Shown here piece after piece: positions 10,598-38,098 of a stretch of DNA of 64,000 nt. The notes under the pieces were generated by a model. It was not told where the DNA came from. It was given only the letters and a program-made list of their open reading frames with translations, and ran no database searches. The DNA comes from Methanosarcina horonobensis HB-1 = JCM 15518 (GTDB lineage Archaea > Halobacteriota > Methanosarcinia > Methanosarcinales > Methanosarcinaceae), in NCBI RefSeq assembly GCF_000970285.1, contig NZ_CP009516.1, forward strand, positions 3,513,036 through 3,577,035, in the 5' to 3' direction. How positions within the stretch are numbered: position 1 is the first letter of the stretch; each line of letters starts with the position of its first letter. A program made the position numbers and the translations under genes.

Positions 10598-13210
<2,613 letters not shown>

Positions 13211-31247: not shown

Positions 31248-31361
31248 GAGCAAGCAAGAATTAGAGCAAGCAAGAATTAAAAAAACAAGAATTAAAGAAA
31301 CAAGAATTAAAGAAACAAGAATTAAAGAAACAAGAATTAAAGAAACAAGAATTAAAGCAAA
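31248..31361 (+). repeat. Short tandem repeats (15-16 bp, about seven copies)
   Basis: Two copies of GAGCAAGCAAGAATTA followed by five copies of a 15-base unit AAACAAGAATTAAAG, the last nearly perfect. Lies directly after the acyl-CoA ligase stop codon and before the terminators. Confidence 0.85.
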
Positions 31362-31377
31362 TAAAATCAGTTTAGTG

Positions 31378-31407
31378 CTATCGACTTCTAGATCGATGGT
31401 TTTTTTC
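31378..31407 (+). terminator. Hairpin plus T-run terminator 1
   Basis: CTATCGA, an eight-base loop CTTCTAGA, then TCGATGG, followed by seven T. Placed 145 bases after the acyl-CoA ligase gene. Confidence 0.65.
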
Positions 31408-31425
31408 CTTTAAATTTAGGCTTTG

Positions 31426-31456
31426 CTATCGACTTTTAGATCGATAGTCTTTTTCT
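31426..31456 (+). terminator. Hairpin plus T-rich terminator 2
   Basis: CTATCGA, loop CTTTTAGA, then TCGATAG (perfect 7-bp stem), followed by TCTTTTTCT. It is a near copy of the hairpin 48 bases earlier, so the terminator seems duplicated. Confidence 0.65.
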
Positions 31457-31847
31457 TAGGATTTAGACTTCTGTTTTCCGGTCTGGATTTCTGCTTTCCA
31501 AATTTCTTTTTGTTTTTATATTATCAGAATATTTTTTACTGAACTCGCCTAAACTTTTTTAAGCCTTAGTACTGCAATCTCAAGTTTTTTGGAAAAATTA
31601 GATCCTGAGAGTTATTTATCAGTTACGGGCCTAATACGTGTTTTCAATCGAGGATAGGATAATTGAAATTATTTAACTATAAAAATCAGTTTAGTCCTTA
31701 CTTTGTTTTGCTTGAAAATTTCAAGCAGATTGAAAAATTAGAAGATAACTATATTTTATAGATTAACCACAATTATTAAAAGGTTATAAAATAATGCCTT
31801 AATCAAATCTCAGTAAGCGAACAAAATTAATGAAATATTGAATATTT

Positions 31848-31869
31848 AACGGAATTTATTATATATAGA
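31848..31869 (+). promoter_or_regulatory. Predicted promoter of candidate ncRNA
   Basis: TTATTATATATAG is a strong archaeal TATA box, preceded by a purine-rich BRE-like ACGGAA. Start of transcription would be expected near 31888-31893, just where the 14-bp closing stem begins. No gene for 650 bases downstream. Confidence 0.55.
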
Positions 31870-31887: not shown

Positions 31888-32160
31888 TTGTAATTGTAAG
31901 AGAAGCTAACCAGGCATGTTTGTACAGGGAATATTTTGGGGAAATATTCATCAATAGGGGTTTCATCCGGTTGAGAGCTCAAGGGATTACGGGCTCTCAA
32001 TCATCACGCCAATGAAAAGCAAATCTTTATTGCCTTCTCTTACAATTGTGTAAAGAATATGTGGGAGTATTCTTTAAGGGGGTTTCATTCGAATGAGAGC
32101 CCAAGGGATCATTTCGGGCTCTCATCAATCACCAATACTGAAACTTCAATTAACTTTTTT
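31888..32160 (+). ncRNA. Candidate structured small RNA with tandem duplicated motif
   Basis: Two copies of one architecture occur about 120 bases apart. Copy A: hairpin GAATATTT/AAATATTC with loop TGGGG (31929-31949), GGGGTTTCAT (31957-31966), and a 10-bp hairpin TTGAGAGCTC/GGGCTCTCAA with loop AAGGGATTAC (31971-32000), then ATGAAA (32012-32017), which can pair with TTTCAT. Copy B: hairpin TAAAGAATA/TATTCTTTA with loop TGTGGGAG (32051-32076), GGGGGTTTCAT (32078-32088), hairpin ATGAGAGCCC/GGGCTCTCAT with loop starting AAGGGAT (32093-32125), then TGAAAC (32139-32144), pairing with GTTTCA. Stems are kept by different bases while loops are conserved. Copy A is also closed by AATTGTAAGAGAAG (31892-31905) with its complement at 32034-32047. 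A T-run follows at 32155-32160. I do not recognise the family. Confidence 0.6.
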
Positions 32161-32544: not shown

Positions 32545-32967
32545 ATGGTTTCAGATGATAAATCCAGGAAATCATCCTGTTTTCGAGAAGTTGCTGAAGA
32601 CAGGACATATGCAAAGAATACAGATTATAAACAGAATAGGGATCATAAATCCAGTTCTCTTGAGGCTTCTCAACTCAATAAGGCCTTAGAGCATGTTCAG
32701 CAGATGCAGACCCGGCAGGTAGTAGATGACACTCCTGAAAACCTCCTTATCTGTATGGAACACTGCGGAACATGCCCAAGTCTGCCTTTTCCACCTGAGC
32801 CTTTACTTTTTTGTGCACGGGGGTGCTCTTTAGAAAAAGTTTCTAAAAAAAGCTGCAACTGTCCTGCATGTCCAGTTTACAAAAAATATGGGTTGCAAAA
32901 TCTGTACTTCTGTGAAACCGGAAAAGCCGTAGGAAAGAAAGAACACAAAGTTGAAACTAAAATTTAA
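32545..32967 (+). CDS. DUF2769 cysteine-rich protein
   Basis: Protein of 140 residues. The first 60 residues are polar and probably unstructured. Residues about 66-125 match DUF2769, a small cysteine-rich domain found mainly in Methanosarcina: CMEHCGTCPS, then LLFCARGCS, then CNCPACPVYKKYGL and YFC, with nine or more cysteines able to bind zinc or an Fe-S cluster. No signal peptide is present. Function of the family is unknown. AGGGT precedes the ATG. It lies about 400 bases downstream of the candidate structured RNA; a link is possible but not shown. Confidence 0.82.
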   Translation: MVSDDKSRKSSCFREVAEDRTYAKNTDYKQNRDHKSSSLEASQLNKALEHVQQMQTRQVVDDTPENLLICMEHCGTCPSLPFPPEPLLFCARGCSLEKVSKKSCNCPACPVYKKYGLQNLYFCETGKAVGKKEHKVETKI

Positions 32968-37577: not shown

Positions 37578-37655
37578 TGGTGCTCCGGCCGGGATTCGAA
37601 CCCGAGTCTTCGGCTCGAAAGGCCGGAATGATTGGCCGGACTACACTACCGGAGC
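37578..37655 (-). tRNA. tRNA-Glu (UUC), copy 1
   Basis: Minus-strand gene starting GCTCCGG and ending CCGGAGC-A-CCA; CCA is encoded. The seven-base anticodon loop CTTTCGA places UUC at 34-36, so glutamate. The anticodon stem has four normal pairs (CGGC/GCCG) and a C27 against A43 mismatch at its base. The T arm GGGTTCGAATCCC is canonical. Identical in sequence to the copy at 38021-38098. A TATA box (minus TTTATATATTA, 37693-37703) lies about 40 bases upstream. Confidence 0.97.
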
Positions 37656-38020: not shown

Positions 38021-38098
38021 TGGTGCTCCGGCCGGGATTCGAACCCGAGTCTTCGGCTCGAAAGGCCGGAATGATTGGCCGGACTACACTACCGGAGC
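38021..38098 (-). tRNA. tRNA-Glu (UUC), copy 2
   Basis: Identical 78-base gene including encoded CCA, same strand, 365 bases upstream of copy 1. Its 5' flank differs from copy 1: the nearest TATA box (minus TATTTATA, 38165-38172) is about 67 bases away and a perfect 12-bp inverted repeat stands between, so the precursor leader would carry or start inside a hairpin. Confidence 0.97.

Follow-up and report, generated by a model that had tools for sequence, protein, structure and literature searches.

A two-module structured RNA of Methanosarcina horonobensis and a candidate multi-copy small RNA family

In a 64-kb window (the whole stretch of DNA that was analysed) taken from the 5.02-Mb, single-contig genome of Methanosarcina horonobensis (G000), two similar motifs follow each other between positions 31888 and 32160, and the question arises whether they belong to an RNA in its own right and, if so, how such an RNA might act. 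A sequence-only reading of the window had proposed selection on RNA structure and a small RNA of about 250 bases that corresponds to no known riboswitch or Rfam family. From our point of view, the comparison with related genomes makes an independently transcribed noncoding RNA at 31888-32160 a well supported conclusion, and several alternatives of different probability can be set out for its possible mode of action.

Locus, promoter and selection on RNA structure

By DNA search, the orthologous locus was found in 26 Methanosarcina genomes, with relatives being 71-88% identical. It is syntenic: in the sample of genomes compared for gene order, it is situated on the 3' side of an operon that comprises a flavin oxidoreductase-like, an XRE-cupin, a thioesterase-like and an acyl-CoA synthetase gene (named by eye), in Methanosarcina as well as in the sister genus g5. 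Besides the acyl-CoA synthetase gene, DUF2769-like or transporter genes flank the locus in part of the genomes; in the window, a small Cys-rich ORF (32545-32967, DUF2769-like by eye) adjoins the RNA and is present in only part of the genus.

The bounds of the locus are marked on both sides. An archaeal TATA box (TTATTATATATA, 31856-31867, + strand) is near-invariant among the orthologues and is immediately preceded by an upstream promoter element (TTGAATATTTAACGG, 31838-31852, +) that is kept in nearly all of them. A T-run at 32155-32160 (+) represents the likely terminator, and a T5 or longer run is found within 75 nt in 26/26 orthologues. Sequence conservation ends at promoter and T-run, with the flanks farther upstream of the promoter element not being conserved in the orthologue comparison. 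With its start placed by the TATA spacing and its end by the T-run, the predicted transcript would occupy the conserved block between the two (31888-32160, +) and measure ~270 nt, so that the size suggested earlier is upheld. At this locus no family of Rfam 15 is matched, be it by gathering score or by E-value (cmscan), the best sub-threshold matches in the region being attributable to chance.

Evidence for a function at the RNA level comes from the pattern of substitutions. Folding of 31888-32160 compared with dinucleotide shuffles gives a z of -4.6 on the + strand and of -6.2 on the - strand. In the 26-row alignment of orthologues, 98.8% of the pairs in four helices are standard pairs, as opposed to 34.5-48.5% when the partners are slid by 1-3 columns as a control, and nine pairs have changed on both sides, which was matched by 0/500 shuffles. 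A similar result was obtained with an alignment of 61 modules (92.4% paired). The proposed selection on RNA structure is thus confirmed. Since the second hairpin of the modules tolerates 34 G-U cells but only 2 A-C cells, the RNA can be assigned to the + strand, and we consider a structured sRNA on this strand to be very probable. On neither strand do the orthologues keep both the start and the stop of any reading frame, and the RNA is probably not translated.

Some further repeats were observed in the window. Immediately 3' of the acyl-CoA synthetase gene, at least six head-to-tail copies of the 15-mer AAACAAGAATTAAAG are located at 31253-31372, followed at 31376-31455 by a terminator-like hairpin (GCTATCGACTTCTAGATCGATGG) with a T-run that is duplicated, its copies being 48 bp apart. 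On the - strand, two tandem tRNA genes of equal Rfam score (37581-37655 and 38024-38098) are separated by ~440 bp, and a similar tRNA gene pair occurs in genome G096 (L043).

Two modules and an enclosing stem

As had been noticed before, two motifs follow each other on the + strand, and they can be delimited as module A (31929-32007) and module B (32051-32133). Each consists of a hairpin with a G-rich loop, the segment GGGG(G)UUUCAU, a 10-12 bp hairpin with the loop AAGGGAU, and the 3' flank (A)UCAC. Module A is enclosed by P1, a perfect 14-bp stem whose 5' arm (AATTGTAAGAGAAG, 31892-31905, +) is 100% complementary to its 3' arm (CTTCTCTTACAATT, 32034-32047, +). In the 26 genomes, 98.3% of the P1 cells are paired, an A-U to G-C double change is seen in 10, and the spacing between TATA box and P1 amounts to 24-26 nt in all 25 measurable orthologues.

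Within module A, the first hairpin (31929-31949, +, loop TTGGGG) is taken from the predicted fold; its GGGGAG is retained in most orthologues and its stem is degenerate in the M. barkeri-like clade. The linker AGGGGTTTCATC (31956-31967, +) is single-stranded in the consensus model and reads GGGGTTTCA[CT] in 56/61 modules. It is followed by the second hairpin (GGTTGAGAGCTC / GGGCTCTCAATC, loop AAGGGATTAC, 31969-32002, +), in which 99% of the cells are paired and four pairs have changed on both sides. In module B, the corresponding elements, all on the + strand, are a first hairpin TAAAGAATA / TATTCTTTA with the loop TGTGGGAG (32051-32076, 98.4% of cells paired), the linker GGGGGTTTCATTC (32078-32090), a second hairpin GAATGAGAGCCC / GGGCTCTCATC with the loop AAGGGATCATTTC (32091-32126, 99.4% of cells paired, three pairs changed on both sides), and the 3' flank AATCACC (32127-32133), which is conserved in the orthologue comparison.

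The statement that the motifs share order and loops but not stem sequence is overstated in its second half, as the second hairpins are near-identical (GAUUGAGAGCYC/GRGCUCUCAAUC) and the first hairpins have GAATAT..TATTC in common, with the register slid. The closing pairings envisaged for the two motifs (TTTCAT/ATGAAA and GTTTCA/TGAAAC) have to be abandoned, because a TGAAA block is present downstream of module A in only 1/26 orthologues and downstream of module B in 2/26. The P1 stem, the TATA box and the paralogues elsewhere in the genome were absent from the sequence-only reading.

Paralogous loci in Methanosarcina and two sister genera

A search of Methanosarcinales genomes with covariance models, which had been suggested as a check, returned homologues with covariation. 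Model R1, built from the window module, matches the window locus in 26/31 Methanosarcina genomes, plus the sister genera g4 and g5, and has no matches outside these three genera among 186 genomes of the order. In g5, up to three separate single-module genes are found ~650 bp apart, each with its own TATA box in genome G008.

From weak recurrent matches, a second RNA, RNA2, could be traced, which is conserved in 30/31 Methanosarcina genomes, and ~510 bp downstream of it lies RNA3. R1 matches RNA2 at E 2.6e-5 to 2e-3. Their stems differ from those of the window RNA, whereas order and loops agree, and the anatomy common to the paralogues comprises a GGG-loop hairpin, a GGGGUU linker and a second GGG-loop hairpin. 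RNA2 and RNA3 (G000:C1:4642430-4643031; L097, 1588-2195) are flanked on one side by a divergent helix-turn-helix (ArsR/Msr-like) regulator gene and on the other by an FmdE-like gene. In 25 genomes, RNA2 shows hardly any variation; it carries a Shine-Dalgarno-like loop (AGAGGUGG), and a palindrome (AGGTTATATACCT) overlaps its TATA box.

A covariance model of RNA2 and RNA3 (R3) matches 36/112 genomes of the taxonomic family, confined to the same three genera, with 1-12 copies each. Ten of its matches at E < 0.01 are found in M. horonobensis, most of them in a further and largest class with the core AGAUURAGAG-UAAUAGGGUUUC-CUCUYAAUCU-GGGUUGGAUCGCA-GGUAGGG...GAAUAGGGAC...CCCUACC and a TATA box. 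Besides RNA2 and RNA3, eight paralogous genes were located in this genome (G000:C1 1722188, 1900268, 1901004, 1903283, 2107572, 2463545, 2531139 and 3899325; L147-L154), seven of which have the linker GGTTGGATCGCA and their own TATA boxes; three of the eight form a cluster of no more than 3.1 kb about a gene resembling cytochrome c peroxidase. Tandem arrangements of the copies are frequent. In related genomes (L161, L165, L170, L176), a single promoter precedes two complete modules of the largest class at a distance of 97 nt from each other, which represents a second case of module doubling.

The window RNA itself has the GGG-loop hairpin, GGGG linker, GGG-loop hairpin and own TATA box typical of the others. 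In 232 kb searched, R3 matches it at 31928-32010 (E 0.0024) and at 32051-32135 (E 0.22), module B alone being a weak match, and reaches E values down to 6e-5 on other window-type modules; a further R3 match in the window (11373-11466, 18 bits, E 0.21) was taken as chance. However, the covariance scores by which the window RNA is linked to the remaining classes are modest (18-35 bits) and stem partly from the palindromic hairpin, and R1 also gives antisense matches of 18-31 bits on its own loci. Because hairpin 2 is palindromic, scores near 20-30 bits are used as supporting evidence only. We nevertheless treat all classes as one family, since the models R2 and R3 recognise almost every window-type module, and do so on the correct strand, and since a single intergenic region of genome G005 contains both a window-type module and, at a distance of 660 bp, a copy of the RNA3 type. 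That the window RNA, RNA2, RNA3 and the further class form a single family appears likely on these grounds. The tandem motif is real, and the locus noticed earlier would thus be one of a much larger set.

The paralogue loci are without an Rfam family as well, and no description of such a multi-copy GGG-hairpin sRNA family was found in the literature searched. Single members may already stand, unrecognised as a family, in the 2009 list of 199 intergenic sRNAs of M. mazei (PMC5867862).

Possible modes of action

Our best explanation is a ~270-nt, independently transcribed sRNA that carries two tandem copies of one module, belongs to a multi-copy family and acts by means of a scaffold and a seed. 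To this reading as a whole, mechanism included, we assign a probability of roughly 0.45; strand, helices, promoter, bounds, lack of a conserved ORF, orthology and copies elsewhere are well supported from the comparison of genomes. The family RNAs would act in trans at the post-transcriptional level, with the GGG-loop hairpins common to all paralogues serving as a shared scaffold for one protein or chaperone and the single-stranded linker as a paralogue-specific seed that would base-pair with mRNAs, probably close to where translation begins. A transcript with two modules would offer twice the number of sites.

This proposal builds on a contrast within the modules. In all classes, the two hairpin loops contain GGG and the linker begins with it, and at least three GGG runs per module are present in 54/61 window-type, 25/25 RNA2 and 10/11 RNA3 modules. 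The linkers read GGGGUUUCAYC in the window class, GGGGUUGAAUCAC in RNA2, GGGGUUGGAUCAUC in RNA3 and GGGUUGGAUCGCA in the largest class, and their 3' parts (UUUCAYC, UUGAAUCAC, UUGGAUCAUC and UUGGAUCGCA) are near-invariant within a class and different between classes. A constant GGG together with a class-specific 3' part is the look expected of a common scaffold or protein site combined with a pairing seed.

The search for targets sets bounds to the kind of pairing that can be imagined. In the genome, the perfect complements of the tested linkers are limited to the antisense strands of the family and one chance site in a histidine kinase gene. The start-codon region GATGAAACCCC yields as antisense matches only itself and the chance site, which lies in a PAS histidine kinase gene, and a perfect complement of GGTTGGATCGCA, the main linker, exists at no locus outside the family; both were dismissed as targets. 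In silico pairing with the ribosome binding sites of neighbouring genes produced no standout and no target. Without a perfectly complementary target for the tested linkers, pairing, if any, would have to be short or imperfect. The arms of hairpin 2 are themselves conserved in sequence, a feature compatible both with a role in binding a protein and with pairing.

The same observations lead to the strongest alternative, namely that the RNAs are sponges in which the three GGG motifs of a module (two loops and the linker) titrate a regulator of translation or decay, with copy number and two-module transcripts setting the capacity. The prevalence of three or more GGG runs, the conserved stem sequences, the many copies and the missing perfect trans targets of the tested linkers would all be in line with it. 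However, a single protein would not require that the 3' half of the linker is class-specific and yet near-invariant within each class, no archaeal partner is known, and each RNA offers only 2-6 motifs. If rather unlikely when taken by itself, a sponge is still almost as likely as the combination of scaffold and seed. The bacterial CsrB/RsmZ RNAs, which titrate CsrA through the GGA loops of repeated hairpins, resemble the present family in repeating hairpins with a short G-rich motif, and differ from it in having GGA instead of GGG and in the number of motifs, which is small here; we know of no CsrA partner in archaea. As for TRAM0076 as a partner protein, its paper reports no binding motif, and it was not retained as a candidate.

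Scaffold and seed, our preferred reading, can be compared with the characterised sRNAs of the genus, which pair with mRNAs near translation starts. sRNA162 (191 nt, three stem-loops, 39-nt linker, beside the ArsR gene MM2441) has been established to mask a ribosome binding site through its single-stranded linker, and sRNA162/sRNA171, like the window RNA, are intergenic, combine structured stem-loops with such a linker, and represent a duplicated sRNA that is conserved only in Methanosarcina (PMC3510493). The window RNA, in contrast, has ~270 nt and two repeated modules, and with an acyl-CoA synthetase operon instead of an ArsR-type regulator (MM2441 or its copy) on its flank, an identity with sRNA162/171 was rejected. 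The link to the nitrogen-regulated sRNA154, an RNA of about 130 nt (PMC3177094, PMC5867862) whose gene has its place between MM3337 and MM3338, had been raised by the sequence-only reading, which had also seen no GGTA-N6-TACC box upstream. sRNA154 is likewise a conserved intergenic sRNA of the genus with two hairpins (PMC3177094, PMC5867862); however, it has this NrpR operator in its promoter (PMC3177094) and carries a leaderless 20-aa sORF (PMC11456600), whereas the box is found in 0/26 orthologues of the window RNA, which has no conserved ORF, so that the observation stands and the link is not supported. Outside the archaea, several paralogous, partly tandem genes with a common motif are described for LhrC of Listeria (PMC4132741) and other sibling sRNAs (PMC4211561), from which the present family differs by its archaeal promoter and by loops that are rich in G instead of C; a relation at the sequence level is not claimed.

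Three further explanations carry less weight. A mimic of the 16S rRNA 3' end, in which the GGGG-loop hairpin plus GGAUCA imitates helix 45 with the anti-Shine-Dalgarno tail and the RNAs would bind Shine-Dalgarno sequences or proteins recognising the 16S tail, appears improbable. It could draw on the 16S-type tail of this genome (CTGGATCACCTCC) in comparison with GGGGUUGGAUCAUC of RNA3, GGGGUUGAAUCAC of RNA2 and AAUCACC of the window RNA, but the resemblance is short, and neither GGGUUGGAUCGCA of the largest class nor GGGGUUUCAYC of the window class is an anti-Shine-Dalgarno sequence. Even less credit can be given to a dispersed mobile repeat that carries a promoter and is functionless in itself, despite the numerous copies in intergenic regions of different kinds, one of which adjoins a TnpB-like gene, as the window locus as well as RNA2 with RNA3 hold their position across many species and the compensatory changes indicate purifying selection on structure. 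Small minus-strand ORFs (MKPL..., MKPP...) as the cause of conservation are largely refuted, for although short frames that begin with the ATG in the complement of GTTTCAT are found in many genomes, this start is lost where the RNA reads UUUCACC, neither stops nor frames are conserved, and hairpin 2, with 34 G-U against 2 A-C changes, speaks for the + strand.

Overall, the comparison points to a family not filed before, with about ten RNAs per genome, in Methanosarcina and two sister genera. Very few sRNAs of archaea are understood so far, and to our knowledge no general sRNA chaperone has been established in methanogens. A clearly covarying multi-copy family with a constant scaffold and a variable linker, in genetically tractable species, hence offers a route to the partner protein and the regulon. 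More tentatively, the single- and double-module RNAs may constitute a large, so far unrecognised paralogous sRNA family (~10 per genome) that combines one protein-binding scaffold with a short differing seed, or forms a GGG sponge, and that is served by a dedicated RNA-binding protein. With scaffold and seed, if true, this would represent an archaeal counterpart of the bacterial system of chaperone plus seed sRNAs.
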